Part shown: piece after piece, positions 39,070-63,734 of the stretch
How positions within the stretch are numbered: the first letter of the stretch is position 1
Layout: the number at the start of each line of letters is the position of its first letter
NCBI RefSeq assembly: GCF_009828925.2
Contig: NZ_WUTY02000001.1
Location: 4,556,492-4,620,491 of the forward strand
Length of the DNA: 64,000 bases
Reading direction: 5' to 3'
DNA from: Methylicorpusculum oleiharenae
GTDB taxonomy: Bacteria; Pseudomonadota; Gammaproteobacteria; Methylococcales; Methylomonadaceae
The notes under the pieces: model-generated
The model's input: only the letters and a program-made list of their open reading frames with translations
Told to the model about the DNA's origin: nothing
Databases searched by the model: none
Made by a program: the position numbers and the translations under genes

Positions 39070-39597
39070 ATGGTTTTATACCGACGAAATCGAATTGAAG
39101 GTGGAACGTATTTTTTCACGGTCACACTGAGAAATCGTCAATCGGATATTCTGGTACGGCATGTTGAACTTTTGCGAGAGGCTTTTCGTTCTGTAAAGAA
39201 GCAACATCCTTTTACGATTGATGCAGTTGTGATTTTGCCGGATCATCTACATACAATTTGGACACTTCCCAAAGGTGATGCCGATTACTCAGGACGATGG
39301 AGAGCCATCAAAGCCCAATTTACTTTTCAACTCAAAAAAACCGGATTAACTTTGACTCAGGATAAACGCGGTGAGCATCAATTATGGCAAAGACGGTTTT
39401 GGGAACACACCATCCGTGACGACAACGATTTTAACCGGCATGTCGATTACATTCACTGGAATCCCATAAAACATGGATTGACTCAAAGTGCAACAGACTG
39501 GCCTCATTCTTCTTTCCATAATTACGTCAGGCTCGGCTTACTTCCGGAAAACTGGGCCATCTCGTCCTCCAAAAATGCTGAACATTATGGTGAATAA
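39070..39597 (+). CDS. REP-associated tyrosine transposase (RAYT)
   Basis: A 175-residue Y1-HUH transposase related to IS200/IS605 TnpA. The HUH pair is His59-x-His61 in LPDHLHTIW and the catalytic Tyr127 is in HVDYIHWNPIKHGL. The N-terminus RRNRIEGGTYFFTVTL is typical of RAYTs. It is flanked by two inverted REP sequences, the arrangement expected for a RAYT and the REPs it mobilises or maintains. The gene is intact, so activity is plausible. Confidence 0.93.
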   Translation: MVLYRRNRIEGGTYFFTVTLRNRQSDILVRHVELLREAFRSVKKQHPFTIDAVVILPDHLHTIWTLPKGDADYSGRWRAIKAQFTFQLKKTGLTLTQDKRGEHQLWQRRFWEHTIRDDNDFNRHVDYIHWNPIKHGLTQSATDWPHSSFHNYVRLGLLPENWAISSSKNAEHYGE

Positions 39598-48206: not shown

Positions 48207-49889
48207 ATGAACATCAACGCAAGTATCATAGACCAGCGAATAAGCGGGATCATTGATGGTCATCCTGAATGGCTACCAGAAGGCAATGATCTGGATAAGA
48301 AAAAATCAGCGGCCTTTGTTTTATTGTGTATGTCCACGACATTAGATATGGATTTAGATGAAGCGGCAGAGCTTTTGACCGATGGTGGACAAGATGCGGG
48401 TGTAGATGGTTTGCATGTCGGTGAAGTAGAAGACGGCGAATTTAGAGTGACTATCTTTCAAGGAAAATACAAAAGAGATTTATCGGGCGAAGCCAATTTT
48501 CCTGAAAATGGCGTACAAAAAGCCATCAACACGGTGCAAGTATTATTCGATCCCTCGCGCAAAGTGGCTTTAAATAAAAAAATCGAGCCTAAAATCGAAG
48601 AGATACGCTCACTGATCAGAGACGCCTATATTCCGACTGTCCGCGTGGTCTTGTGCAATAACGGGGCTGCTTGGAAAGAAGAGGCCCAGCAGTGGCTTAA
48701 TGCGGCTGAAAAGGACTATGGTGACAAAGTCAGTTTCACTCATTTCAATCACGACTCTATTGTTAACGTTTTACAGCGCAGCAAATCAGTCGATACCCAA
48801 TTGATCTTAAATGGCAAGGCCATTGTGGAAGACATGAATTTTCTTCGAGTATTGGTTGGCAGAGTATCTGTACAGGAAATACAAAGACTGTTTAATCAGC
48901 ATGGCGACAAATTACTCGAAAGAAACATTCGCCGTTATTTAGGCTTGCACGCCAATCGGGTTAATCTGGCTATTCATGAAACGCTGACTGATCCCAGTAA
49001 ATCCGATAAGTTTTACTTCTATAACAATGGTATAACCGTCGTTTGCGACAAATTTGATTACAACGCCTTTCAAAAGGAAGACTACCAAGTTCAAATCAAA
49101 AACATGCAGATTATCAATGGTGGGCAAACCTGCCGTACCATTCAGGAGACCTTAAATAACTCGCAAAAGGATTTATTCTCAGTGCCGCAATCGGCGTATG
49201 TGATGATCCGCATCTATCAGTTAGCCGAATCGAAAAAAGATTTTGTCAGGGATATTACTTATGCCACCAATAGCCAAAATCCAGTCGATCTGCGCGATTT
49301 ACGTTCCAATGACGAGATACAAAAGCAACTGGAAATGGGCATTGAGGATTTGGGTTACAGTTACAAACGTCAGCGGGAAGAAGGTGGTGGTGGTTCCAGT
49401 GTAATTACCAGCACAATTGTTGCCGAATCGGTGTTAGCAATTTGGCGAGATAAACCCCATCAAGCCAAATTTCGGCGTAAAGAACACTTCGGCAAGTTAT
49501 ACCAAGATATTTTTCAGGGGCTGAACGCAGCACAAGCGTTGTTATCCGTCTTGATTTTCCGAACGGTAGAGAATGAGCGTAAACGGCCCTCCCAGCAGAA
49601 TCCCGCTGATTTCTTACCCTATGCGTCCCATTACATCAGCATGTTGATTGGTAAACAATTGCTCGCCGAGCAAGGTATCAGTTTACAAGATGTTTCCCAT
49701 CGAAATTTCAAACAATTACTGGAAGCGTTTGAAGCAAAACAAATCGAATATCACCAAAAAGCCATCCAAGAATTAAGAGACGCTCTGAATTATTGCTATG
49801 GAAATAGAGACGTTTCATTACAACAATTGTCAGCAACATTTAGAAGGGGCGATTTACTCGAACAATTAGACATACTCAACTTCATATAA
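48207..49889 (+). CDS. AIPR-family abortive-infection protein
   Basis: A 560-residue protein of the AIPR family. The N-terminal 90 residues look like a PD-(D/E)XK nuclease: DGGQDAGVDG (Asp67) followed by VTIFQGKY (Gln85-x-Lys87). The AIPR body has RNIRRYLG, FYFYNNGITVVCD, IINGGQTCRTI and ITYATNSQNPV, all family hallmarks. AIPR proteins are linked to abortive phage infection. It is inserted between brxC and pglX with 15- and 10-bp spacers, so it is expressed as part of BREX and may be an extra effector. Confidence 0.88.
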   Translation: MNINASIIDQRISGIIDGHPEWLPEGNDLDKKKSAAFVLLCMSTTLDMDLDEAAELLTDGGQDAGVDGLHVGEVEDGEFRVTIFQGKYKRDLSGEANFPENGVQKAINTVQVLFDPSRKVALNKKIEPKIEEIRSLIRDAYIPTVRVVLCNNGAAWKEEAQQWLNAAEKDYGDKVSFTHFNHDSIVNVLQRSKSVDTQLILNGKAIVEDMNFLRVLVGRVSVQEIQRLFNQHGDKLLERNIRRYLGLHANRVNLAIHETLTDPSKSDKFYFYNNGITVVCDKFDYNAFQKEDYQVQIKNMQIINGGQTCRTIQETLNNSQKDLFSVPQSAYVMIRIYQLAESKKDFVRDITYATNSQNPVDLRDLRSNDEIQKQLEMGIEDLGYSYKRQREEGGGGSSVITSTIVAESVLAIWRDKPHQAKFRRKEHFGKLYQDIFQGLNAAQALLSVLIFRTVENERKRPSQQNPADFLPYASHYISMLIGKQLLAEQGISLQDVSHRNFKQLLEAFEAKQIEYHQKAIQELRDALNYCYGNRDVSLQQLSATFRRGDLLEQLDILNFI

Positions 49890-49899
49890 TTGGCTAACA

Positions 49900-52800
49900 A
49901 TGGAAACCACCAAGCTCAAGCGTTTTGCCCAATACGCTCGCCGCAGTCTCAAGGATCAAGTCGAAACCAAACTCAATCAAGTATTAGTTGAGGAAAGTGC
50001 CGCCAGACGTGAAAGTGCAGCTGCAATCAGAAAGCTCGAAGAGGCTATCCATAACCAGGGTAAAGACCAGGTGATTGAACGGGTAGCCTACATCTGGTTT
50101 AACCGTTTCTGTGCACTGCGCTTCATGGACGTGAACCGCTACAATCGAGTCGGCATTGTTTCTCCGGCTGACCCTGGGCAATTCCAGCCCGAGATCCTGG
50201 CCGAAGCCAAGATGGGCCATATCGATGACGAGATGGTGCCTATCAAGATTCGGCAGCAAGTCTTTGCGCTACTCGATGGCAAAGCGCCCAGTCGCGATCC
50301 GCAAGGCGAGGCCTATCGGCTATTGGTCGTCGCTGCGTGTAACTACTGGAACAAGGCCATGCCGTTCCTGTTCCAGCGTATCGAAGACTACACCGAGCTG
50401 TTAATGCCCGATGACCTGCTTTCGAGCAACTCCATTCTCGCGCACATGCGCGAAGCAATCAGTTATCAGTTATCAGTTATCAGTAATGAACACGAACCTG
50501 CTGATAACTGCACACTGAATACTGAGGGCTTGGAAGTCGAAGTTATCGGCTGGCTTTACCAGTTCTACATCTCCGAGAAAAAGGACGAGGTGTTCGACGG
50601 GCTGAAGAAAAACAAGAAGATCACGCCCGAAAACATCCCCGCCGCCACCCAGCTGTTTACCCCGCACTGGATCGTGCGCTACTTGGTAGAAAATTCACTC
50701 GGTCGCCTTTGGCTGCTCAACCGCCCAGGCTCGAAGTTGGCTAAGCAGATGGACTACTACATCAAACCCGAACAAGCAGAGACGGACTTCCTGCGCATCA
50801 GCAAACCAGAAGAGATCAAAGTTTGTGATCCGGCCTGCGGCTCCGGCCACATGCTGACCTACGCCTTCGACCTGCTTTACGCCATCTATGAGGAGGAAGG
50901 CTACGAGCCTGCTGAGATCCCGGAGAAAATTCTCACCCATAATCTGTTCGGCATCGAGATCGACGAACGCGCTGGCGAGCTGGCAGCATTCGCGCTAACC
51001 ATGAAAGCTCGTGCAAAGCAGCGCCGATTCTTCAACAAAGGGATCAAGCCGAACATTTGCGTGCTGGAAAATGTCCGTTTCGACGAGACTGAACTGAGTG
51101 AGTATATGACTTTTGTCGGGCGTGAATTGTTTACTGCTCCGCTGCAAATGGCTCTGAGTCAATTCGAAGAAGCCGACAACTTCGGCTCTCTGATTCGCCC
51201 CGATGTCACTGATGTAGACAAAATACTCAAAACCTTGGCGTCAAAGAACGTCTCCGGGCATCTGTTCCTCAGTCTAACTCACCATAAGGTACTGCAAGCC
51301 CTGCGGCAGGCCGATTACCTGAGTCCCAAATACCATGTGGTAGTCGCAAACCCACCGTATGCCGGTGTTAAGGGATTAAATAATAGACTTGCGGTTTGGC
51401 TGAGTGAGCAATTCCCTTCCGCTTGCTCAGACCTAATGACTGCATTTATGGAAAGATGTCGGCTGCTTGTTATTCAACATGGAACTTGGAGCATGATCAA
51501 TCTTCCTTCTTGGATGTTTCTTGGATCTTACCGAAAACTTCGCACACATCTTTTGAATTCACAGAAAATCATTTCATTAATTCACCTTGGGCGAGGCACC
51601 TTTGGAGCAGATTTTGGTGCGGTCGCATTCTCAGTATCGAATAGCCAACCATTTTCGGAAACTAGAATGATTGCAAGGAAGCTCTTTGAAAAATTTTCTA
51701 TCGTTCGTACCAACGAAGAATTAGAGAAGCTATTTCTCGACAAAAATTATGGCAGATTCAACATTAAGCAAGGTTCATTGATGGCAATTCCAGATGAACC
51801 GATTGCATATTGGTTGAGCGAAAATGCCATTAGATCATTTTCAGATGGAACTCCACTCTTAGAAATTGCGCCTGCAAAACAGGGTATCAAGACTGGTAAC
51901 AACGATAGATTCTTGAGGTTTTGGCAAGAAGTTGATGTTTCGAGAGCTGCGCTGGATGAGCAGAAAATTGAAGCCCTTACTGGCCAAAAGAAATGGTTTC
52001 CATGTACTAAGGGTGGCTCGTTTCGTCGATGGTATGGTAATTTTGAATACCTCCTCAATTGGGAGAATGACGGTTATGAAATCCGAAATTATAAGGATGA
52101 AAACGGTAAATTACGTTCCCGACCTCAAAATACACAGTATTTCTTTTTTGGAGGAATAACATGGTCTAGTCTCACGATTGGTTCATTTTCCGCTCGGCGT
52201 TTGCCGAAGAATTTTGCATTTGAAAGCAAGGGATCTGCATCGCCAATACAGGACAACGATACTGCGTTAAGCATTTTGGGCTTCATGAACTCCGTTGTAG
52301 TAGATCGGCTTATTTCTGCTCTTTCGCCCACAGTTGATTACAGCGAAGGTGCTATTGGAAAATTACCAATAATTGAAGTCAATAAATCTGTTCTTTCTGA
52401 AGTAGAAAAGTTGATCACACTTTCTCGCTCGGATTGGGACTCATACGAAACCTCCTGGGACTTCACCAACCTGCCCCTGCTTAATCCCAACCATTTCCAG
52501 CCAACTCTGAAAGCCACCTATCAGAAGCTCCGCGCACATTGGCGCGAAATGACGCTGGAGATGCAGCGGCTGGAGAAAGAGAACAATCGCATCTTCATCG
52601 ATGCCTACGGTCTTCAGAATGAGTTAACGTCGGTGGTGCCGCTCAATGTAATCACCCTGACCTGCAACCCGCACTACCGCTACAGCAATGGCAAATCCGA
52701 GGAAGAGCTGGAAGCGCTGCTACTGGCCGATACCCTTCGCGAACTGGTCTCCTATGCAGTGGGCTGCATGTTCGGTCGCTATGCGTTGGATAAGTCTGGA

Positions 52801-53478
52801 TTGATTCTGGCAAACCAAGGTGAAACCCTCTCTAACTACCTGAAACAGATTCCAGAGCCAAGCTTCCCAGCCGATGACGATAACGTCATCCCCATGCTCG
52901 ATGGCGATTGGTTCACCGACGACATCACTGAACGTTTCCGCCAGTTTCTGCGCGTGGCCTTTGGCGAGGAACACTACGAGGAAAACTTGAAGTTCGTCGA
53001 GCAGGCGCTTAACGTCAAAGGTAAACGTGAATACAGCATTCGTGACTATTTCCTAGGTGAGTTCTATATCGACCATGTCAAACGCTACAAAAAGCGGCCC
53101 ATCTACTGGCTGTTTTCCAGCCCTAAAGGCAGCTTCAATGCCCTGATTTATATGCACCGTTACCGCCCGGATACAGTCAGCGTAGTTCTCAACGACTATC
53201 TGCGCGAATTCCGCACCAAACTCACAGCCCATAAAAGCCATCTGGAAGCGGTCAGCATCAGTGCCAGTGCCGCCCCAGTTGAGAAAACCAAGGCCCTGAA
53301 GGAAATCGAGAAGATCAATAAAATCATCGCGGAGCTGGAAGAGTATGAGCGCGAAATCCTATACCCACTGGCTACTCAACAGAAAGAAATTAATCTGGAT
53401 GATGGTGTTAAGGTCAACTATGTCAAATTCGGTTCCGCATTGAAAAAGATTGTTGGTTTGGATGCACCGGAGGATTAA
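49900..53478 (+). CDS. pglX: PglX, BREX adenine-specific DNA methylase
   Basis: A 1192-residue methyltransferase. Motif I is DPACGSG (310-316) and the catalytic NPPY is at 484-487. The N-terminal helical part has ERVAYIWFNRFCALRFMD; the C-terminal half includes ITLTCNPHYRYS. It methylates the host DNA at a BREX site to mark self. Two oddities: residues about 187-209 (ISYQLSVISNEH...) come from an in-frame repeat insert, and residues about 488-847 are encoded by markedly AT-rich DNA. The frame is intact throughout, so a full-length product is expected. Confidence 0.95.
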   Translation: METTKLKRFAQYARRSLKDQVETKLNQVLVEESAARRESAAAIRKLEEAIHNQGKDQVIERVAYIWFNRFCALRFMDVNRYNRVGIVSPADPGQFQPEILAEAKMGHIDDEMVPIKIRQQVFALLDGKAPSRDPQGEAYRLLVVAACNYWNKAMPFLFQRIEDYTELLMPDDLLSSNSILAHMREAISYQLSVISNEHEPADNCTLNTEGLEVEVIGWLYQFYISEKKDEVFDGLKKNKKITPENIPAATQLFTPHWIVRYLVENSLGRLWLLNRPGSKLAKQMDYYIKPEQAETDFLRISKPEEIKVCDPACGSGHMLTYAFDLLYAIYEEEGYEPAEIPEKILTHNLFGIEIDERAGELAAFALTMKARAKQRRFFNKGIKPNICVLENVRFDETELSEYMTFVGRELFTAPLQMALSQFEEADNFGSLIRPDVTDVDKILKTLASKNVSGHLFLSLTHHKVLQALRQADYLSPKYHVVVANPPYAGVKGLNNRLAVWLSEQFPSACSDLMTAFMERCRLLVIQHGTWSMINLPSWMFLGSYRKLRTHLLNSQKIISLIHLGRGTFGADFGAVAFSVSNSQPFSETRMIARKLFEKFSIVRTNEELEKLFLDKNYGRFNIKQGSLMAIPDEPIAYWLSENAIRSFSDGTPLLEIAPAKQGIKTGNNDRFLRFWQEVDVSRAALDEQKIEALTGQKKWFPCTKGGSFRRWYGNFEYLLNWENDGYEIRNYKDENGKLRSRPQNTQYFFFGGITWSSLTIGSFSARRLPKNFAFESKGSASPIQDNDTALSILGFMNSVVVDRLISALSPTVDYSEGAIGKLPIIEVNKSVLSEVEKLITLSRSDWDSYETSWDFTNLPLLNPNHFQPTLKATYQKLRAHWREMTLEMQRLEKENNRIFIDAYGLQNELTSVVPLNVITLTCNPHYRYSNGKSEEELEALLLADTLRELVSYAVGCMFGRYALDKSGLILANQGETLSNYLKQIPEPSFPADDDNVIPMLDGDWFTDDITERFRQFLRVAFGEEHYEENLKFVEQALNVKGKREYSIRDYFLGEFYIDHVKRYKKRPIYWLFSSPKGSFNALIYMHRYRPDTVSVVLNDYLREFRTKLTAHKSHLEAVSISASAAPVEKTKALKEIEKINKIIAELEEYEREILYPLATQQKEINLDDGVKVNYVKFGSALKKIVGLDAPED
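50458..50524 (+). repeat. Miniature inverted-repeat insert, in frame within pglX
   Basis: Four tandem 7-mers (ATCAGTT three times, then ATCAGTA) at 50458-50485 are followed 15 bases later by an inverted arm starting CTGATAACTG (50501-50510). The left end matches the left end of the element at 56376-56777 at 18 of 22 positions. The right end (50501-50524) matches its right end (56754-56777) at 20 of 24. It adds about 22 codons to pglX without a stop. Confidence 0.8.
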
Positions 53479-53481
53479 GGC

Positions 53482-53760
53482 ATGACTAAGCCTTTTGTAG
53501 CGGCGGATTTCTCCGCGCTGGTAGCCACTATTGCCGGGATTCACCATTCCTTGGCCGAGCAAGCCGCGCGTGCTGTCAATATCAGCCTGACTTTACGAAA
53601 TTGGTTGATAGGCGTTTATATCCGTGAGTATGGACAAAAAGGCTCTGATCGGGTCCCATTCGGCGAAGCTTTGCTGGAACGCCTCAGTCAAACATTGGCG
53701 GAAACCGGGAAGCTGGCTATCACGCACGCGAACTGCGCCACTGCCGTGCGTTTTATCTGA
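53482..53760 (+). pseudogene. Truncated DUF1016/YhcG N-terminal domain
   Basis: A 92-codon frame with the start of a DUF1016 (YhcG-like PD-(D/E)XK nuclease) protein: GIHHSLAEQAARAVNISLTL, RNWLIGVYIREYGQKG and LLERLSQTLAETGK. Normal members have about 340 residues with the nuclease domain at the C-terminus, which is missing here. It ends in TGA just before a perfect palindrome (53771-53797). It starts 4 bp after pglX, so it is still co-transcribed; no nuclease activity is expected. Confidence 0.7.
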
Positions 53761-53824: not shown

Positions 53825-56374
53825 ATGAGTGAAAACAAGATTGCGCTCGCATTGGAGCGTTTGTTTGATAAGCATCGGATTGTGTTTTGGTACGATGCCA
53901 AGCAGGAATTACGCAACGATTTTGAGTCCCTAGCATTACCCGGCGTTGAGAAGCTTGAACTACTCAACAATGAGTACGAAATCAAATACCGGATATTGCG
54001 CGAGCAGCCTGAACAAAAATTCCTGCTGTATCGGGAGGGTCCGCAACCGGTCGACTTAGACAATTGGCTACTGGATGTGCAGTTGGCTCACGGTGAGTTT
54101 CGTACCGATCAAGCGGCATTGTGGCTGTCCGAGCTGGAACTTGGCTTCCAGTTTGTCGATTTGGTCCAAACGCATGCCGAATTCTTTCAAGCCATTAAGC
54201 GTAGAGAGGCCCTCAAAAAGTGGCTGAAGCCTGACGACACCAATGGGCTGATTCGCGTGAAAATGCTAGCGGTCTGTGCGGGCTGCGAGGCGCGCATAGA
54301 CGCCGTCATTGAAAACTTATTTCAGGAATTGGCGGATGGCCGCAACGATAAAAGCAAACTGATCGAACGCTGTGGACTGGATGCTTTTTTGTGGGAACAG
54401 TTGTTAAGAATCTACGATTACCATTCTCCAGAGAAAAGTCTTAAAGATTTTCTGATCAAGCTGTTTCATGACTGCTACGAAATGGAACTTGAACCCGGAA
54501 AATACGCCGACCTGAGAAAACAAGTCCACGGGAGTGAGAACTTACCTTCACGGATGTCTCAAGACATACAGGTTTTTATCAAACGCTGGAAAGATAGCCG
54601 ACAATTTGAAACGGGGTTTGAAAAACTTTCTGCTGAAGTAGCTGAATTGCTCGGGATTGAGCAGGATCTTGCCAAGCGGGATTTTCGGCAGCTGATCGAG
54701 CTGGATTACTTTCGCCTCATCGACCAAAAAATTATCAGTGATCTGGTAAAAGTGGTGGTTGAACGGACCGTTTCCGGGGGGGATGTGGCGTTATGGGTGC
54801 GTCGGCGTCGGCAGGGACACTGGTACAGAGAGTTTCGGCATTTATACGAAGCAATCGATTACGCCGCGCAATTTATCAATACACTCGGAGAAGCCAATCT
54901 TACGATGGATGGTCTGGTGGACGGTGTGCAACGTTACAGCCGCTTTTGGTACCAACTAGATCAACTTTACCGTAAGTTCACCTTTCATGTGCGGATGTCA
55001 GGTCAAGCGTCGCTGATGAGCATCCTGACTGAACAAATCGAAAATCTTTACACCAATAATTATTTGCTGAAGATCAACGATTGCTTTCAGGCCTGTGTCG
55101 ATGAGGTCCAGGTTTGGAACGCCCGCCCGATTACTTTGCAACGAAATTTCTTCGAACACTGGGTACGGCCGTTTTTGCGGAAGGATAACAAGGTTTGCGT
55201 GATCATTTCCGACGCCATGCGTTATGAAATTGGCGATGAACTGCTCAGTCTTATCCGTCAGGAAGACCGCTATAGCGCAGAGATTGAGGTCGCATTAGCT
55301 ATGCTGCCGAGTTACACCCAATTGGGTATGGCAGCGCTGTTACCCAATAAAACGCTAGCGATTACCGACAATGATACCGGCACGGTGCTGGTCGATGGTC
55401 AAAGTTCCCAAGGGACGGCCAGTCGTAACAAGATTTTGCAGGCCGCACTCAAAGGTCGAGGACAGGCTGTAACCGCTGAAGACTTTATGTCCATGAACCG
55501 TGATGATGCACGCGAGCTACTCAAGGCTAACGATGTGGTATACATCTACCACAATCGGATTGATCACACCAGCGATAAGATGCATTCCGAAGGGCAGGCA
55601 TTTGAAGCCGCAGAGCAAACGCTTGATGATCTGGTTCGTTTGGTGAAAAAACTTGCCGCGGCCAACGCCAATAATTTACTGATCACTGCCGACCATGGAT
55701 TCATTTATCAGCACCGTGTACTGGATGAAAGTGACTTTTCCAGCGTCGAGGCCGAGGGTGCCCATATTCTTTACCGTGATCGTCGCTTTGTATTGGGCAA
55801 GGGGCTCACGTTATCACCGGCACTACACACGTTCTCACCCGCACAATTAGGCTTGGAAGGTAATATTGAGGTTCAGATACCCAAGTCGATCAATCGCTTA
55901 CGCCTTAAAGGCTCAGGGAGCCGCTTCGTACACGGCGGAGCATCCTTGCAGGAAGTTGTTATTCCAGTGCTAAAGATCAACAAAAAACGCCAGAGCGATG
56001 TCACTAGCGTTGAGGTTGAAATCTTGCGTGGAGCCAGTTCGGTTATTACCGCTGGCCAATTGGCGGTAACGCTCTATCAGTCGGGCCCCGTTACCGACAA
56101 AATCCAGCCCAGAATCCTACGTGCAGGCATTTACACTGAGGCAGGAGATTTAATATCCGATAGCCATGAACTGACCTTCGACCTTAGCTCGGAGAACCCA
56201 CGAGAAAGAGAACTGCAAATACGCTTTGTACTTACGCGTAAAGCCGATGATGCCAATGGCCAGGAAGTCATTCTTAAGCTGGAAGAAAAGCATGCCGGCA
56301 CTTCACATTACAAAGAATATAAATCGCTTCGCTATGTGATGAGACGTTCGTTTACCAGCGATTTTGATTTTTGA
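53825..56374 (+). CDS. pglZ: PglZ, BREX alkaline-phosphatase-fold protein
   Basis: An 849-residue type A PglZ. The N-terminus IVFWYDAKQELRNDF is typical of BREX-1 PglZ. The alkaline-phosphatase-like domain has SDAMRYE at 462-468, ITADHGFIYQ (about residue 617-626) and HGGASLQEVVIPV, which hold the metal and nucleophile residues. PglZ is a core BREX protein needed for both methylation and defence. Its stop codon is immediately followed by the left end of the small mobile element. Confidence 0.93.
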   Translation: MSENKIALALERLFDKHRIVFWYDAKQELRNDFESLALPGVEKLELLNNEYEIKYRILREQPEQKFLLYREGPQPVDLDNWLLDVQLAHGEFRTDQAALWLSELELGFQFVDLVQTHAEFFQAIKRREALKKWLKPDDTNGLIRVKMLAVCAGCEARIDAVIENLFQELADGRNDKSKLIERCGLDAFLWEQLLRIYDYHSPEKSLKDFLIKLFHDCYEMELEPGKYADLRKQVHGSENLPSRMSQDIQVFIKRWKDSRQFETGFEKLSAEVAELLGIEQDLAKRDFRQLIELDYFRLIDQKIISDLVKVVVERTVSGGDVALWVRRRRQGHWYREFRHLYEAIDYAAQFINTLGEANLTMDGLVDGVQRYSRFWYQLDQLYRKFTFHVRMSGQASLMSILTEQIENLYTNNYLLKINDCFQACVDEVQVWNARPITLQRNFFEHWVRPFLRKDNKVCVIISDAMRYEIGDELLSLIRQEDRYSAEIEVALAMLPSYTQLGMAALLPNKTLAITDNDTGTVLVDGQSSQGTASRNKILQAALKGRGQAVTAEDFMSMNRDDARELLKANDVVYIYHNRIDHTSDKMHSEGQAFEAAEQTLDDLVRLVKKLAAANANNLLITADHGFIYQHRVLDESDFSSVEAEGAHILYRDRRFVLGKGLTLSPALHTFSPAQLGLEGNIEVQIPKSINRLRLKGSGSRFVHGGASLQEVVIPVLKINKKRQSDVTSVEVEILRGASSVITAGQLAVTLYQSGPVTDKIQPRILRAGIYTEAGDLISDSHELTFDLSSENPRERELQIRFVLTRKADDANGQEVILKLEEKHAGTSHYKEYKSLRYVMRRSFTSDFDF

Positions 56375-56375
56375 G

Positions 56376-56777
56376 TTATCAGACGTCAGTTGTCAGTAAA
56401 AGAGAAATTGAATGAAATTTGAGGATTTAGTAGTTTGGAGACGATCAGCGCGGCTTTCGGCAGAATTGTACAAATCATTTACTGATTGCAAGGATTTTGG
56501 TTTTAGGGATCAGATTACGCGGTCTGGCTTATCTATTCCTAGCAATATTGCTGAGGGATCAGAAAGAAATTCAAAAAAGGATTTCATCCGGTTTTTGCAC
56601 TATGCAAAAGGTTCATGTGGTGAGCTTAAAACTCAAATTTATATCGGAATCGACATCGAATACATCGAACCCATTCAAGGAAAATCTTGGCTGAATGAAA
56701 CCCGCGAACTGTCTGCTATGTTGGTTGGATTAATCAGTTCGATAGAAAAACAACTGATAACTGAAGGCTGATTACTG
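56376..56777 (+). mobile_element. Four-helix-bundle-protein element with terminal inverted repeats
   Basis: A 402-bp unit between pglZ and brxL. The left end (56376-56398) and the right end (56752-56774, reverse complement) match at 18 of 23 positions, with repeats of the TCAGTTATCAGT type. The only gene inside encodes a four-helix-bundle protein. The unit fills the junction completely: pglZ stops at 56374 and brxL starts at 56778. The brxL ribosome binding site candidate (GAAGG, 56764-56768) lies inside the element's right end. Confidence 0.7.
56412..56771 (+). CDS. Four-helix-bundle protein (23S rRNA intervening-sequence/Avd-like family)
   Basis: A 119-residue helical protein. MKFEDLVVWRRSARLSAELYK, FRDQITRSGLSIPSNIAEGSE and FIRFLHYAKGSCGELKTQI are hallmarks of the small family first found in 23S rRNA intervening sequences and related to Avd of diversity-generating retroelements. 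These proteins form four-helix bundles that bind nucleic acid; no catalytic activity is known. The gene's last codons lie within the right terminal repeat. No reverse transcriptase or variable repeat is nearby. Confidence 0.88.
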   Translation: MKFEDLVVWRRSARLSAELYKSFTDCKDFGFRDQITRSGLSIPSNIAEGSERNSKKDFIRFLHYAKGSCGELKTQIYIGIDIEYIEPIQGKSWLNETRELSAMLVGLISSIEKQLITEG

Positions 56778-58877
56778 ATGACTCCCCTAGATAAGAAAAT
56801 CAATACCCATTTCCCAGGACTTGTCGTTCGAAAAGATCTCGTCAAGACCGTTAAGGGGAATGCGATCGTTCCCTCTTACGTGTTGGAATATTTGCTCGGC
56901 CAGTATTGCGCGACCAGTGACGAGGCGACGATTCAGACGGGCATCGAGACGGTCAAGGAGATCCTTCGCAAGCATTATGTCCATCGCAATGAAGCGGGCC
57001 TAGTGCGATCGACCATTAAGGAGAAAGGTCGCTACAAAGTGATCGATAAAGTCTGTGTTGACTTAAACGACAAGGCAAACGTTTACGAAGCAACCTTTGA
57101 AAACTTGGGCTTAAAAAAGGTCTTGATCGATTCAGGAACCATAAAGAAGCATCCTAAATTGTTAGTCGGTGGTGTTTGGTGCATTTGCGACCTTGAATAT
57201 GATTTTACGGAAGATCAAAACGCATCGCCGTGGATATTGTCATCGTTAAAGCCCATTCAGCTTTCCCATTTCGACTATGAAAGCTATATCGAAGCGAGAA
57301 AACAGTTTACGACAGAAGAATGGATTGATGTTCTGCTCCAGAGCATTGGTTTAAATCCGGAAGTCTTTGGTCGCAGAAGTAAGCTAATCCAGCTTGTCCG
57401 CTTAATCCCATTTTGCGAACGAAATTACAACTTATTGGAACTGGGTCCCAAAGGGACGGGTAAGTCTCATATTTATTCAGAGTTTTCGCCTCATGCCACC
57501 TTAGTTTCTGGTGGCGAGGCAACACTGGCAAAACTGTTTATCAATAATACGACCGGCAAAATCGGATTGGTCGGTTATTGGGATGTTGTTGCCATGGATG
57601 AGTTTGCCGGAAGCAACAAAAAGCCGGACATTAAGCTGATCGATACGCTGAAAAATTATATGGCTAATAAGTCATTTAATCGGGGTACGGGGCCGCAAGG
57701 CGCCGAAGCATCCATGGTCTATATCGGCAACACTTCGCATAACGTTGCCTTCATGCTGAAGCACGAAAACCTTTTCATGGATTTGCCGGAGACTTACCGA
57801 AATTCTGATGGTCAGGCCATTCTGGACCGGATGCACTGGTTTCTTCCCGGCTGGGAAATGGAAAATTTGCGTAGCGAGATGTTTTCGGATGGTTATGGTT
57901 TCGTCGTGGATTATCTCGCCGAAGTTTTACGCTCTCTACGTAATCACGATTATGCAGATCGCTACGCAGAGCATTTCTCACTTTCGTCTGATATTTCGAC
58001 ACGTGACCGGGACGGTATCAATAAAACGTTTTCCGGCCTGATGAAAATCTTGTTTCCACATGGAGGAGCTTCCACAGACGAAATTGAAGAACTGCTGAAA
58101 TTTGCAATTGAAGGTCGAAAACGCGTCAAGGACCAATTGATGCGGATCGATCAGACCTATGCCAAGGTCAATTTTGCCTATCTGAATTCCTCGCAGCATT
58201 TGTATCAAGTCACGACACTGGAAGAACAAGAATACCCGCATTATTATCATCGTTCTGTTGGTGACGGCAGTGACGAGGAGGAATTGATTCAATCAGAAAT
58301 TCCCACGTCACCGGTTGAATACCCTTCGATATCGCCTCGGGATATTCCCGAGCCAGTCTTGAAAGAAAAACACCTAACATTTCAGGAAAACCAGAAAGGG
58401 ATTTCATTTGATTTTTTGTTTGGGCCCTATCTGGCGGGCGCTAACAAAATCACTATCACTGATCCTTATATACGGTTGTTTTATCAGCTTCGTAATTTTA
58501 TGGAGTTTCTTGAAACAATCGTCAGGCATAAATCTGACGATGCTGAAGTTGAAGTTCATTTGATTACGACTGAGGATGACTTTAAGGGCGAGCAGCAGCG
58601 GGAAAGTCTGGATAAAATCGCCGAATCTTGTAGCGCGGTCGGCATCCATTTCACATGGGCATTTGACGAAACCGGGACGATTCATGCCCGACACATTTTG
58701 ACCGATCACGGTTGGAAAATTTCGTTAGACCGTGGTTTGGATATTTTTCAGAACTACGAAACGAAGGAAGCGTTTACCTTTACCAATCGCATGCAGCAAT
58801 ATCGGGCTTGTAAGGCGTTTGAGGTGACGTTTATTAGGTGCGAAGAAACAAGACCAGTGAGAGAGTCACATGGGTAA
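56778..58877 (+). CDS. brxL: BrxL, BREX AAA+ protein (Lon-like annotation)
   Basis: A 699-residue AAA+ protein. Walker A is GPKGTGKSH at 223-231 and a Walker B-like VVAMDEFAGSN follows near 268. The N-terminal domain (HFPGLVVRKDLVKTVKGN) is typical of BrxL. BrxL assembles into rings on DNA and is needed for phage exclusion. The last 150 residues (KITITDPYIRLFYQLRNFMEFL, GWKISLDRGLDIFQ) resemble an MIT_C/PLD-like module instead of a Lon protease domain. It is the last BREX gene here. Its start directly abuts the mobile element. Confidence 0.9.
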   Translation: MTPLDKKINTHFPGLVVRKDLVKTVKGNAIVPSYVLEYLLGQYCATSDEATIQTGIETVKEILRKHYVHRNEAGLVRSTIKEKGRYKVIDKVCVDLNDKANVYEATFENLGLKKVLIDSGTIKKHPKLLVGGVWCICDLEYDFTEDQNASPWILSSLKPIQLSHFDYESYIEARKQFTTEEWIDVLLQSIGLNPEVFGRRSKLIQLVRLIPFCERNYNLLELGPKGTGKSHIYSEFSPHATLVSGGEATLAKLFINNTTGKIGLVGYWDVVAMDEFAGSNKKPDIKLIDTLKNYMANKSFNRGTGPQGAEASMVYIGNTSHNVAFMLKHENLFMDLPETYRNSDGQAILDRMHWFLPGWEMENLRSEMFSDGYGFVVDYLAEVLRSLRNHDYADRYAEHFSLSSDISTRDRDGINKTFSGLMKILFPHGGASTDEIEELLKFAIEGRKRVKDQLMRIDQTYAKVNFAYLNSSQHLYQVTTLEEQEYPHYYHRSVGDGSDEEELIQSEIPTSPVEYPSISPRDIPEPVLKEKHLTFQENQKGISFDFLFGPYLAGANKITITDPYIRLFYQLRNFMEFLETIVRHKSDDAEVEVHLITTEDDFKGEQQRESLDKIAESCSAVGIHFTWAFDETGTIHARHILTDHGWKISLDRGLDIFQNYETKEAFTFTNRMQQYRACKAFEVTFIRCEETRPVRESHG

Positions 58878-59011: not shown

Positions 59012-60268
59012 GTGAAATTCATCCATGCGGCAGACATACACTTGGATAGTCCGTTAACCGGATTAAGTGCATACGCTGATGCCCCGGTGGAGATGCTCCG
59101 CACGGCGACTCGCGATGCGTTTACCAACCTGGTGACTGAAGCGATTGAGCAAGCGGTTGACTTCATGGTGATTGCCGGCGACCTCTACGATGGTACCTGG
59201 AAGGATCACAACACCGGCATTTATTTCTGTAGAGAAATGGGCCGTCTTAAAAAAGCGGGCATTCCGGTTTATCTGCTGTTCGGCAACCACGATGCCGAAA
59301 GTGAAATGACCAAGAAACTGCAATTGCCTGACAATGTCTTTGCCTTCGACACCCGAAGACCCAATACTTTTCATCTGGCAGACCTAAAGGTTGCCCTGCA
59401 TGGCCGCAGCTTTAAGGAAAAAGAGACCCTGGAGAATCTAGTGACTGGCTATCCGGCTCCACTGCCAGGCATGTTCAATATTGGCGTGCTGCATACCGCG
59501 CTTGAGGGCAATGCAGCGCATGCATCTTATGCCCCGTGCAGTTTGAATGAACTTCATGCCAAGGGCTACCATTACTGGGCATTGGGCCATGTTCACGAGC
59601 ATCAAATATGGGAAGGTGCCTCGACAGTGGTTTTTCCTGGCAACCTCCAAGGTCGTCATATCCGGGAGACCGGACCGCGTGGAGCGGTTATTGTCACTGC
59701 AGATGAGCACGGCATTCATGATATTCAGCGCCTTTTCGTCGATGTTCTGCGCTGGGTCAGTCTTGAAGTTGATGCTACCGAGTGCAAAACGCTATCGGAA
59801 GTCGTGACCCACATTGGCAAAGCGCTCGACGAACGGGTAGAAAGCAGCTCGTCGACCATTCCCCTAGCGGTTAGAGTCACCGTCACCGGTAAAACGGCTG
59901 CGCACGGTGATCTTTTCGGACTGGAACCGCAACTTCGCGCCGAAGTCTTGGCTTTGGCAGTCACCCTGGGGACGGAGCGACTTTGGATTGAAAAGGTCAA
60001 GGTGGCGACTGCTTCGGCAGATGACGGTGAGGCGCTGCGAGCACGAGCCGATGCCTTATCCGATTTGCAGGATCTACTTCAGGCGGCTGAATCAGACGCT
60101 GATTTCCTTAAGAGCCTGCAAGACGATCTTTTAGGGCTCGTCAATAAAGCTCCCTTAGAGTTGCAAACCTCAGTCCCTTATTTTAAAGCCATCCGTTCAG
60201 GCGAGTTAGTGGACTTGGTTCGCGAAGTCCGTCCGGGACTGCTGTCTCATTTAGCCAAGGTAGAGTGA
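59012..60268 (+). CDS. YhaO-like Mre11/SbcD-type nuclease
   Basis: A 418-residue calcineurin-like phosphoesterase. Metal-binding motifs in order are AADIHLDSPL, VIAGDLYDGTW, LLFGNHDAESE, ..GVLHTALEG and ALGHVHEHQIW. The C-terminal third is helical and probably binds the Rad50-like partner. Proteins of this YhaO type pair with YhaN-like ATPases as bacterial relatives of Mre11-Rad50 (SbcCD) acting on DNA ends. It lies 134 bp after brxL and 7 bp before its partner. Confidence 0.88.
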   Translation: MKFIHAADIHLDSPLTGLSAYADAPVEMLRTATRDAFTNLVTEAIEQAVDFMVIAGDLYDGTWKDHNTGIYFCREMGRLKKAGIPVYLLFGNHDAESEMTKKLQLPDNVFAFDTRRPNTFHLADLKVALHGRSFKEKETLENLVTGYPAPLPGMFNIGVLHTALEGNAAHASYAPCSLNELHAKGYHYWALGHVHEHQIWEGASTVVFPGNLQGRHIRETGPRGAVIVTADEHGIHDIQRLFVDVLRWVSLEVDATECKTLSEVVTHIGKALDERVESSSSTIPLAVRVTVTGKTAAHGDLFGLEPQLRAEVLALAVTLGTERLWIEKVKVATASADDGEALRARADALSDLQDLLQAAESDADFLKSLQDDLLGLVNKAPLELQTSVPYFKAIRSGELVDLVREVRPGLLSHLAKVE

Positions 60269-60275
60269 ACTGACG

Positions 60276-63200
60276 ATGCGATTCAACCGCTTGGACTTAA
60301 TCAAATACGGCAAATTCTCTGACCGCTCGGTTATGTTTCCAGTAGCCAAACAGGACTTTCATCTAATTGTCGGGCCTAATGAGGCCGGCAAGTCGACATT
60401 GCGGTCCGCCATTGTTGATTTGTTGTTCGGCATCCCGCCGCGTTCTCAGCTCAGTTTTTTACATCCGCTTAATGAACTACGTTTGGGTGCCTCCATCAGC
60501 AATGCCTCAGGTTCGTTAGACTTTCACCGGGCAAAGGCTCTAAAACAAACCCTACGTTCACCACAGGATGTCGTCTTGCCCGATACTGCGCTGACACCGT
60601 TCTTAGATGGTGCGGATAGACATTTCTATGATCAAATGTTTGGTCTTGACCATACGCGCTTGGTGTCCGGAGGCAATAGCATCCTCAATGCCGAGAACGA
60701 CGTCGGCCAGATCCTGTTTCAGTCGGCGGCGGGTGTTGCCAGTCTCGGTAAAATTCGTGATGCGCTGATCGCCGAGGCGGATAAGCTTTGGGCACCCCGA
60801 AAAGCCAATAACCGAGAGTATTACATCGCCGCAGATCAGCTCGACAAGGCGACCACCGCGTTAAAGGAAGCCACTGTCCGCACCAAAGTCTGGGTAGACG
60901 CCAATAGTAAGGTCGAATCTCTGCAAGAAGCGCTCAGTCATGAGCGCGAACGACATCAGCAACTCCAAAGCCAGCGTAATCGGCTTGAGCGCATTCGAAG
61001 GCTCGCCCCGTTTTTGATGACCCTGAGGGATAACGAACATAAACTCGCTGAACTGGGTGAAGTGATAGAACTGCCTGTCGACGCCGCTGCTACGCTCGCA
61101 ACTGCAGAACGCGAGCTGGCTATCGCCCTTGAACGCCTAGAACTGCGCAATGATGAGGTTGAAAAAATCACTGAAGCGTTATCCAACATCGATGTGGACG
61201 AAGTCGTACTTGAACTGGCTGCCGACATCAGCAAACTCGATAACCTTCGCCTTCAATACAGCGCCTATGAGCGCGATATCGCCAATCGAAAAAATGAAAT
61301 AGCCGTGCTTTGGCAAGCGGTGGGTCAAGCCTGCAACCAGTTGAGTTGGGCCAAAGACTCTGAGAGTGCAATTGCCCAACGTCTACCAACACTGCTGGTC
61401 CGGCGCGAACTCAGGCAACTGGTCCGCGACCGCGGCGGCATTATTCAAACCCTACGGGCAGCAGAACAGGCAGAAAAAACCAAGTGTTCTGAAATCGAAA
61501 CACTATCAAAGCAGTTGGCTGAGTTGCAGATGGGCGAGGTCAAACCCGCGCTACGTGCAGCATTAGCCAACACCAAATCATTCGGTGACACCGAATTAGC
61601 CCTCCAAATGCGCCAAGCTACGCTGACCAAGACGAAGTCAGCGTTGGACAATCTATTGTTGGAGTTGGGGCAATGGCAAAAGCCTTTGCCTGAGTTAATC
61701 GCATTGCAGCCGCCTAGCCAAGAAAAAGTAAACCGATTGATCCAAGAGCGGCAATCCCTAATTGCTGACCGGAAAGCTGAATTATTAAGGCTAAAAAATC
61801 AAACAGCTGAGGTTGCCAGAATTGAACTACAAATTGCCCAGTTTAAAGCGCTCCATCATCCTATGACACTAGCGGCGGTGATTGAAGCGCGGACTGAACG
61901 AGATACGTCTTGGGAAGCGATAAAAACCGGTGAAATTGATCTGCAGCGAGAGGGACACACGTTTGAAGAGAAGATGACCCATGCCGACCAAGTTGCCGAT
62001 AAGCGACTCGACGATGTCGAAGAAGCAACCGAACTCCAAAGCTTGAATCAGCTGCTTGAACGGGAGCAGCAGAGCCTATCGATGATTGAACACCAATGTG
62101 CACAATGGGAAGCAAAGCTTCACGTGTTCGATGACCGATGGGGGCAGGAAGCACTGTCAATGGGTTTAAACGGCATGCCCTTAGAAGACATGGGGGCCTG
62201 GATTATTAGACGGGAAAAGGCGCTGTCTGCTGGTATTGCATATCAAGATGCACAGGATGAATTTGATTCATTTAGCCGTTTAGTTGCACAGTCCCGACTC
62301 AATCTCGTCAAGGCGTTACAAGAAACGCGGCTTCCTGTGGTCGAGACGGATAGCTTGTCTGTCCTGTGCATTCAGGCCGAAGACTATATCCACGCCACCG
62401 ACAGCGCCAAAATTCGGCACGAAACTTTATCGGCTCAATTGCTTACCGCGCAGTCACTGGCGACGACGTTAAGGCAAGCCACTGAGAATGCGAAAGCTGA
62501 GGAAAGCCGCTGGTCTAAAGCTTGGTCAACAACTCTGGCTAAAACGGGGTTGCCTCCTGACAGCGATATTGGCACGACTGAAGGTGCTCTTGAGCTCATC
62601 GAGCAAATAGCTGAAAAGTTAGAAAAGATGCGGCAGATTCAAGTCGAGCGCATCGACACCATGAATGCTGACCTAAAGGAGTTTTCTATTGAAGGGAATC
62701 GACTCGCGCAAATCATTGCCGCTGAGCTCAAAGATCAGCCAGCCGAGCAAATTGCTCAAACGTTAGCCAATCGTTTAGATCGAGCCCGCGAGTCTTTTAC
62801 TGAAAGCAGTCGGCTTAAAGAAGCCCTGCGAATTGCAAACAGTCAGGTCTTGGAAGCCAAGGAATCAAGTCAAACCGCAATGGCGAGTTTGAAGCCGCTC
62901 ATGGAAAAAGCGGGGGTCGACACCACGGCTTTGTTGAATGAAGCAATTGGCCGATCTGACGAGCAACGCCGCCTAAATGCCGCGCTGGCAGAGGCTAAGG
63001 CAGCTCTTCTCAGTGGGGGGGATGGTCTTATACGGGAACAACTCGAGGCTGAGATTGATGCAGCCAACCTGGTTCAGCTTGCCGCTGAACTCACACGCAT
63101 CAACGATGAAATTGCTGATGCAGTGCAGCAGCAAACAACTCTTTCGGCTGACCGTGCAAATGCCTTGGGGGTTCTGTCCGAAATCGGTGGATCAGACGCG

Positions 63201-63734
63201 GCAACACAGGCGGAGGCCCAACGCCAAGAAGCGCTTGCGCAAATGTCGGATGTTGCAGAACGCTATGTAAAAGTTTTCACCGCCGGCCGCTTGCTCCGTT
63301 GGTCTATAGACCGCTATCGAGAAGAAAAGCAGGGACCCCTGTTGCAACGAGCGGGTGCTATCTTTTCGACATTAACGTCCGGATCATTTACCAAGCTGAT
63401 TCTTGATTTTGAGCGGGAGCCCATGGTCCTAGAGGGGCTTCGCTCCGATGGCACGCTGGTTGGTATTTCTGGCATGAGTGACGGCACACGAGATCAGCTT
63501 TACTTGGCACTTCGACTAGCGGCCCTGGAAATGCACTTGGAGCAGGCCATGCCATTGCCCTTCATCGCAGACGATCTATTTATCAACTACGATGATGTCC
63601 GATCAAAAGCGGGGTTTGAAGCACTTAAGGCATTATCCGAACAAACCCAAGTTATTTTTCTTAGTCACCATGACCACTTGATCCCAACAGTTCATGAGGT
63701 TTTTGGTAAACAAGTGAACGTTGTACTCTTGTGA
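60276..63734 (+). CDS. YhaN-like Rad50/SbcC-type ATPase
   Basis: A 1152-residue SMC-like ATPase. The N-terminal half-site has FHLIVGPNEAGKST (33-41) and a hydrophobic strand. The C-terminal half-site has SGMSDGTRDQLYLALRLAAL (signature) and FIADDLFINYDD (Walker B). Between them are about 850 residues of long coiled coil. A Cys-x-x-Cys zinc hook is not evident. It overlaps neither neighbour but is clearly co-transcribed with the YhaO-like nuclease gene. Confidence 0.9.
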   Translation: MRFNRLDLIKYGKFSDRSVMFPVAKQDFHLIVGPNEAGKSTLRSAIVDLLFGIPPRSQLSFLHPLNELRLGASISNASGSLDFHRAKALKQTLRSPQDVVLPDTALTPFLDGADRHFYDQMFGLDHTRLVSGGNSILNAENDVGQILFQSAAGVASLGKIRDALIAEADKLWAPRKANNREYYIAADQLDKATTALKEATVRTKVWVDANSKVESLQEALSHERERHQQLQSQRNRLERIRRLAPFLMTLRDNEHKLAELGEVIELPVDAAATLATAERELAIALERLELRNDEVEKITEALSNIDVDEVVLELAADISKLDNLRLQYSAYERDIANRKNEIAVLWQAVGQACNQLSWAKDSESAIAQRLPTLLVRRELRQLVRDRGGIIQTLRAAEQAEKTKCSEIETLSKQLAELQMGEVKPALRAALANTKSFGDTELALQMRQATLTKTKSALDNLLLELGQWQKPLPELIALQPPSQEKVNRLIQERQSLIADRKAELLRLKNQTAEVARIELQIAQFKALHHPMTLAAVIEARTERDTSWEAIKTGEIDLQREGHTFEEKMTHADQVADKRLDDVEEATELQSLNQLLEREQQSLSMIEHQCAQWEAKLHVFDDRWGQEALSMGLNGMPLEDMGAWIIRREKALSAGIAYQDAQDEFDSFSRLVAQSRLNLVKALQETRLPVVETDSLSVLCIQAEDYIHATDSAKIRHETLSAQLLTAQSLATTLRQATENAKAEESRWSKAWSTTLAKTGLPPDSDIGTTEGALELIEQIAEKLEKMRQIQVERIDTMNADLKEFSIEGNRLAQIIAAELKDQPAEQIAQTLANRLDRARESFTESSRLKEALRIANSQVLEAKESSQTAMASLKPLMEKAGVDTTALLNEAIGRSDEQRRLNAALAEAKAALLSGGDGLIREQLEAEIDAANLVQLAAELTRINDEIADAVQQQTTLSADRANALGVLSEIGGSDAATQAEAQRQEALAQMSDVAERYVKVFTAGRLLRWSIDRYREEKQGPLLQRAGAIFSTLTSGSFTKLILDFEREPMVLEGLRSDGTLVGISGMSDGTRDQLYLALRLAALEMHLEQAMPLPFIADDLFINYDDVRSKAGFEALKALSEQTQVIFLSHHDHLIPTVHEVFGKQVNVVLL

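Follow-up and report, generated by a model that had tools for sequence, protein, structure and literature searches.

The window analyzed here is a 64,000-nucleotide stretch of the Methylicorpusculum oleiharenae genome (contig NZ_WUTY02000001.1, positions 4,556,492 to 4,620,491). It carries a BREX operon made up of brxA, brxB, brxC, an AIPR-domain gene, an Eco57I-type methylase gene that we take as pglX, pglZ, and brxL. The AIPR-domain gene lies at 48207-49889, between brxC and pglX, and a short open reading frame (ORF) between pglX and pglZ (53482-53760) gives a sub-threshold match to DUF1016_N and is perhaps a remnant. A Y1_Tnp transposase ORF, presumably of the IS200-like, REP-associated type, is found upstream of the operon (39070-39597), and the region beyond brxL (59012-63734) holds a calcineurin-like phosphoesterase gene and a large AAA_27/SMC-like gene, which we take to be an SbcD/SbcC-like pair. 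Between pglZ and brxL, the junction is filled by a single small gene and two flanking arms, and a related structure that contains no gene lies within pglX (Table 1).

Table 1. Features of the pglZ-brxL element, the pglX miniature, and their host genes (positions in the window)
Feature	Position	Strand	Description
Whole element	56374..56783	+	Ends approximate; gene for the four-helix-bundle protein between two heptad arms; occupies the pglZ-brxL junction
Left arm	56374..56397	+	7-mers AGTTATC AGACGTC AGTTGTC AGT; starts on the final base of the stop codon of pglZ
Four-helix-bundle gene	56412..56771	+	PF05635 (23S_rRNA_IVP), 119 aa; profile match and matches to solved chains
Right arm	56751..56783	+	7-mers CAACTGA TAACTGA AGGCTGA TTACTGA TGACT
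pglZ	53825..56374	+	Host gene left of the element; not part of it
brxL	56778..58877	+	Host gene right of the element
Gene-less fold-back miniature	50460..50525	+	In frame within pglX; left arm 50460-50484 (AGTTATC units), loop, right arm 50501-50525 (CTGATAA CTGCACA CTGAATA CTGA)
pglX/brxX	49900..53478	+	Gene for a methylase (Pfam Eco57I), interpreted as pglX/brxX; host of the miniature

The protein encoded in the junction matches the PF05635 profile at 118.9 bits, against a cut-off of 33.8, and its sequence matches chains of the solved structures 2gsc (E 3e-14) and 2rld (E 5e-9), both of which comprise five chains. A relative of this helical protein, Xcc0516, reportedly forms a five-fold ring. 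The nearest named matches are in metagenome-assembled genomes (MAGs) of Methylomicrobium sp. and Methylicorpusculum sp., and no tblastn match to the protein was found among phage records at E 1e-5. Relative to the copies in two other genomes with a filled junction (G002 and G001), the gene has a dN/dS of ~0.10 to 0.15. Across the pairs compared, the ratio was 0.04 to 0.17 in eight of the ten pairs that gave a value, the remaining two (0.56 and 2.2) both having a dS below 0.02; two further pairs yielded no dS. Judged by these ratios, the gene is maintained by purifying selection.

A sequence-only reading of this DNA had described the gene as a discrete insert in the junction, bounded by imperfect terminal inverted repeats (18 of 23 positions matching) and lacking a transposase or reverse transcriptase. 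The repeats are there: a 24-nt imperfect inverted repeat (56374-56397 and 56753-56776) is complementary at 20 of 24 positions (83%), and its score of 14, obtained with 40-nt flanks, was equalled by 0 of 2,000 dinucleotide shuffles. With flanks of 200/250 nt, the score was equalled in 0 of 500 shuffles. When the window arms were judged instead against swapped flanks of other copies, which have the heptad style in common, they scored 13 (95th percentile, 11.5; 99th percentile, 14.5), and the inverted repeat alone is thus less outstanding than against shuffles. What that reading had missed is that both arms consist of degenerate tandem 7-mers in a 7-nt register, although the period-7 signal of the window copy alone is modest (z 2.6), and that the insert does not stop at the gene: the right arm runs on to ~56783, encoding the last residues of the PF05635 protein (its C-terminal tail) and including the brxL start codon (56778). 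Left and right arms pair with each other in the element's minimum-energy fold. No transposase or reverse transcriptase was recognized among the scanned operon ORFs. The genome as a whole has four reverse transcriptase matches, two of which, among the matches listed, fall outside the window.

23S rRNA intervening sequences (IVSs) are a long-known kind of element, which RNase III cuts out of the rRNA. In the portions of the literature available to us, IVSs with an S23p/IVP ORF resemble the window element in their PF05635 gene, stem-forming terminal inverted repeats, gene-adjacent heptamers, and single small ORF; the Coxiella IVS, as described there, combines a terminal stem of 28 bp with tandem heptamers in front of the S23p ORF, their number depending on the strain, and its protein is probably not made. 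Unlike these, the window copy lies in an mRNA operon and, being outside 23S rRNA, is not classed as an rRNA IVS, although two of its relatives (L194 and L140) are true rRNA copies. The proposal of an undescribed type of element does not hold as a whole: the type is known in part, since rRNA IVSs have the same gene and anatomy. The IVS literature that we found, as far as its available portions go, does not tie copy-specific heptad arms on both sides, miniatures, or filled and empty sites to IVSs. According to similarly partial sources, PF05635 proteins also resemble Avd of diversity-generating retroelements. Those retroelements differ in having a reverse transcriptase beside the Avd gene, and none is present among the scanned operon ORFs at the window element. 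Three weak hits in our collection (L023-L025) have a reverse transcriptase match within 2 kb and look like Avd genes of such retroelements.

The 7-mers of the arms have a counterpart in the literature as well. TAACTGA heptamer repeats, a unit identical to a 7-mer of the window arms, are reported from Beggiatoaceae, Cyanobacteria, and Bacteroidetes, often just before start codons (MacGregor 2015, PMC4679880). In the sections of that paper available to us, the repeats differ between strains mostly by 7-nt steps and are discussed as translation signals that are possibly mobile, with no mechanism of spread being apparent; its text contains none of the terms "four helix," "23S," and "intervening." Within the accessible parts of the open-licence literature, we found no paper linking these observations on IVSs and on heptamer repeats.

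We drew PF05635 copies from relatives, from a scan of genome contigs (24 loci), from their genomes, and from 6 of 21 plasmid hits. Of 84 hits in 82 loci, 51 copies were left once duplicates, partial hits, and those close to the end of a contig had been removed. A 74-copy set selected by the same rules covers several phyla, and a hold-out of 31 copies came from a class-wide draw and its multi-copy genomes, with two duplicates and two partial hits removed. Stretches 500 to 1,200 nt away from the copies served as controls. Among the 51 copies, lag-7 identity was 0.385 in left flanks and 0.374 in right flanks, compared with 0.263 and 0.251 in the controls; lags 14 and 21 were also raised in both flanks, and no other lag within 2 to 24 was raised comparably. 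The hold-out gave 0.424 and 0.360, compared with 0.258 and 0.255. Considered singly, 33 of the 74 copies had lag 7 or 14 as the dominant lag at z>4, and lag 7 reached this in a single one of the 144 control stretches, while no lag exceeded z 4 in 36 copies and other steps were rare (lag 6 in two, lag 8 in one, lag 9 in two). At three loci (L134, L085, and L126) the strongest step is 6, 8, or 9 instead of 7, and the flanks of L126 look like direct rather than inverted copies. A scan for tandem arrays at lags 5 to 12 across the loci of the PF05635 set returned 51 lag-7 arrays, 35 of them no more than 300 nt from a PF05635 gene, and a single array with lag 12.

The arms were scored by comparing the left flank of each copy to reverse-complemented right flanks, both its own and those of other copies (swapped pairs). 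The inversion between a copy's own flanks surpassed the 95th percentile of the swapped pairs for 56 copies out of 74 and the 99th for 28; the corresponding counts in the hold-out were 24 and 9 of 31. This leaves 18 of 74 copies, and 7 of 31 in the hold-out, with no arm pair above the 95th percentile. Among copies whose arms are significant, the left arm contains more G than C in 53 of 56, and in 21 of 24 in the hold-out. Inverted ends thus recur around many copies of the family, in support of the sequence-only reading, but not as one conserved repeat. They are copy-specific 7-mer arrays, with units read from the flanks as AACTGAC, CCTTGAA, GAGTTCT, GTGAGTA, GCGCGAA, ACCCTAC, and others, and no fixed end sequence was found among these varying arms. 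This absence of fixed terminal repeats distinguishes PF05635 elements from DNA transposons and classical MITEs.

The similarity of units falls with protein distance, from a mean cosine of 0.153 at distances below 0.3 to 0.110 at 0.3 to 0.4 and 0.050 to 0.067 above; in a permutation test over distances below 0.5, 4 of 1,000 permutations were as high. Among copies in unrelated places the relation is weak, and we rejected the 7-mer unit as a stable mark of protein lineage. Even at fixed sites, the arrays of sister copies vary in length and unit. Selection for RNA pairing in the arms left no sign, with 96 mismatches of the G.U type and 104 of the A.C type.

Comparison of homologous junctions bears on whether these elements move. 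The pglZ-brxL junction is filled in M. oleiharenae (G000), in G001 and G002, and in a deltaproteobacterial MAG (L033), and these four copies form one clade in the protein tree (support 99/90). Five genomes have a brxL that is at least 71% identical; the junction is filled in three and empty in two (L056 and L059), and the PF05635 family profile has no match in the BrxL loci L056 and L059-L084. The element gene is not a BREX core gene. The empty and filled junctions whose comparison the sequence-only reading had called for are both found. The target duplication that it had named as a sign of mobility was not visible at the pglZ-brxL, cysD-cysN, swap, and pglX sites compared, which include no near-identical empty site. 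Taken together, its interpretation is partly supported.

A second junction provides a larger sample. Thirty cysD-cysN loci (a label of hsdM-hsdR for this junction was rejected) comprise 7 with the gene, 16 that are empty, 6 with other genes, and 1 that is unreadable. Empty spacers are at most 95 nt long, and the window's own genome (L148) is among the 16. The junction is filled in Halomonas and two Shewanella loci, among others, and in one of the seven (L167) the gene has decayed to ~30 codons while both arms are kept. The protein tree gives at least two origins at cysD-cysN, on few columns and with unsettled bootstrap values. At L158, another gene occupies the junction and CCTTGAA-like repeats remain before cysN. 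The native spacer is missing at filled sites of both pglZ-brxL and cysD-cysN.

Two sites hold different elements between similar flanks. At cysD-cysN, one element is present in G011 and G037 and another in G059; the flanks beside the arms are 95 to 99% identical, compared with 51 to 69% for the inserts, and one intergenic stretch further upstream is 25% identical. At the second swap site, it is G011 whose element differs from the one common to G037 and G059 (inserts 53 to 70% identical), yet the closest flanks are those of G011 and G037 (93 to 100%), despite their different elements. The gene also occurs inside other coding sequences: at L003, L004, and L005 it is surrounded by a host frame, different from its own, that continues uninterrupted across the element (525, 1,102, and 868 codons), the host frame of L004 being open at both ends of the locus, and L109 is similar, but its host frame stops soon. 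Pfam identifies an Eco57I-type methylase in the L004 host frame, a sub-threshold methylase in that of L005, and no family in that of L003, for which the identity as a methylase was dropped; the tree label "in_methylase" is a working label for L003 and L109 only. Going by these open host frames, rather than by an aligned uninterrupted homolog, L003-L005 would be in-frame insertions. No near-identical gene copies were found at unrelated sites within one genome. Mobility is well supported for the family and less well supported for the window copy itself.

The history of the window copy is complicated by recombination. Between G000 and G002, the element gene is 91% identical at the DNA level (dS 0.36), compared with ~70% for pglZ and brxL, whose dS is too high to estimate, a contrast that looks like independent movement of the element. 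Identity at the window element rises from 64 to 78% in pglZ to 86 to 93% in the gene, and it remains high for ~270 nt into brxL. The brxL gene of G000 is a mosaic: its first ~270 nt are 81 to 88% identical to G034, G001, and G002, and the remainder is 92 to 98% identical to G034 and 63 to 73% identical to G001 and G002. Because the high identity runs on through these ~270 nt, a stretch that also recombines between the filled G001 and the empty G034, homologous recombination could have carried the window copy into the operon together with the first part of brxL.

Other copies lie in or beside genes for stable RNAs. In 2 of 47 loci scanned with Rfam, the gene is embedded in 23S rRNA and shares its strand (L194 and L140, the latter on an Azospirillum plasmid). 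Both have 7-mer arms; those of L194 are built of TCTGTCT units (left, CATCAGAAGACAGA; right, TCTGTCTTCTGATG). A tRNA gene lies directly downstream on the same strand in 8 of 27 hold-out copies scanned with Rfam (L179, L184, L187, L189, L190, L191, L195, and L240), and the position in front of a tRNA is a further hot spot of PF05635 elements. A partial copy outside these counts (L196) is also located among tRNA genes. Taking the longest ORF on each side as the neighbor, the downstream gene had the same orientation as the element in 54 cases and the opposite in 7, and the upstream gene in 57 and 7, the rest being unclear; the bias was weaker in the hold-out (9:3 downstream and 12:6 upstream, with many unclear).

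Arms of this build also occur without a gene. The miniature in pglX is a 66-nt fold-back that keeps the reading frame, and it has the AGTTATC unit in common with the element 5.9 kb downstream. A 25-nt pattern of four ACTG heptads has a single match in the 5.85-Mb genome, at 50460-50484 in pglX. The miniature is absent from all nine aligned homologs (L209-L217, from 31 other genomes with a match), including that of G002, whose protein is 90% identical. A lag-7 scan of the window with a 42-nt scanning length found no array, the pglX arms being shorter than that. Rickettsia palindromic elements and other MITEs likewise insert in frame and leave a palindromic miniature within an ORF; they differ from the pglX miniature in that here there are 7-mer arrays, a copy-specific sequence, and a related one-gene element. 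Elsewhere, the pglZ-brxL junction of another genome (L062) contains a gene-less fold-back 7-mer array of ~220 nt (1262-1490; GTGATTA/GTGAACA against CACTAAC), and G389 also has a gene-less fold-back or array. In genus g10 (L254-L282), there is a high-copy gene-less family with a conserved core, gGGGCTTGACAAGTGaTTGAAATGCCGCATCATT, and a promoter-like TTGACA; after the core there are, in most cases, highly regular 7-mer arrays with a unit that varies among copies. We rejected this core as proof of descent from a gene-bearing element: it was undetectable in L009, L010, L014, and L026-L028, and its best scores in gene-bearing elements were below the shuffle maxima.

Across 276 gammaproteobacterial genomes, a PF05635 match is present in 12 of 22 with arrays and in 43 of 254 without (P = 1.7e-4). 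When one genome whose sole array is the arm of its own element is counted as array-free, the numbers are 11 of 21 and 44 of 255 (P = 5e-4). The reversed pattern was intended as a control but matches 7-mer arrays as well and so is not a clean one; it gave 11 of 24 and 44 of 252 (P = 0.002), with element arms possibly included.

We interpret the window insert as a small selfish mobile element of the 23S rRNA IVS kind that lives outside rRNA, within transcripts, and consists of one Avd-like gene between inverted arrays of degenerate 7-mers, a reading to which we give a probability of about two in three. Sequence comparison supports it through the recurrence of the anatomy across phyla, the two rRNA copies included, through the filled and empty junctions, through the exchanges between similar flanks, and through the gene-less fold-backs.

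It is conceivable that the 7-mer fold-back arrays are themselves the mobile or self-amplifying unit, spread by, for example, a Y1/RAYT transposase or replication slippage, and that the gene is a passenger in their loops. The gene-less arrays in L062, pglX, genus g10, and G389, the lack of a PF05635 match in 10 of the 22 array genomes, and the Y1_Tnp ORF in the window would all suit such an explanation. We nevertheless consider it unlikely, given the association of arrays with the gene and the purifying selection on the latter. REP/RAYT elements are short palindromes, at times in high copy, as here, but no constant tag is seen by eye beside the arms, and no Y1 transposase is adjacent, the Y1_Tnp ORF lying ~17 kb away (selected window ORFs scanned). 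Moreover, although Y1_Tnp matches occur in 88 of 101 genomes, they are absent from G031, which has three PF05635 matches and neither a Y1_Tnp nor a reverse transcriptase match. The resemblance to Avd would instead suggest an RNA-mediated movement that depends on a reverse transcriptase supplied in trans, and the location of copies in transcribed regions, mostly in sense orientation, agrees with this. To this route we give little credence: of the 20 genomes in which PF05635 exceeds the cut-off, 13 have a reverse transcriptase match (PF00078), compared with 45 of the 81 others (P = 0.31), the nearly complete genomes G012, G031, G048, and G050 have copies and no such match, and the arms bear no mark of selection for RNA pairing. 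We set a reverse transcriptase in trans aside on this lack of association; neither reverse transcriptase genes nor Y1 transposases show a telling association with PF05635.

A quite improbable alternative, though less so than the RNA route, is that the gene is a domesticated part of a BREX lineage, for instance a regulator, which travels solely with the operon through homologous recombination, and that the inverted repeat serves mRNA processing or the translation of brxL. The single clade of the four pglZ-brxL copies, the dN/dS of about 0.1, the provision of the brxL start region by the right arm, and the extension of the mosaic tract into brxL are consistent with this view, but close relatives of the operon (L056 and L059) are without the gene, and the same build occurs at cysD-cysN, tRNA, rRNA, and other loci.

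If the window insert is a selfish element within transcripts, as we favor, it would have no promoter of its own and would live in host transcripts, at operon junctions, before tRNAs, in rRNA, and in frame in ORFs, which fits the mostly sense orientation. The arms would fold into one hairpin in RNA or single-stranded DNA. RNase III, which cuts such a hairpin out of rRNA, presumably cuts it in mRNA as well, which would make an insertion cheap for the host. The helical protein would recognize the hairpin from its shape and 7-nt step, not from its sequence, and would help to copy or insert the element; the cutting and joining of strands may fall to host replication and repair or to another partner. 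Arrays would turn over fast, in 7-nt steps, and for this reason each copy would have its own unit.

On this reading, the ribosomal IVS is one habitat of a type of mobile element with 7-mer arms. More tentatively, PF05635 proteins may define a separate class of minimal mobile elements that is present in many phyla and inserts in transcribed regions without a transposase, recombinase, or reverse transcriptase of its own. In such a class, the hairpin would be read by its 7-nt periodicity, the ends would be rebuilt at or after insertion, miniatures would be mobilized in trans, and ribosomal IVSs and part of the heptamer repeats would be special cases. Operons, including defense operons, can carry such inserts without necessarily using them. 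The anatomy of the element makes its way of movement testable, and the window is a handy model, with a full element and an in-frame miniature in one operon, the AGTTATC unit in both, and empty sites in relatives. Three puzzles, namely, the movement of rRNA IVSs, the role of the many orphan "four helix bundle protein" genes, and the scattered degenerate 7-mer repeats, seem to be one system.
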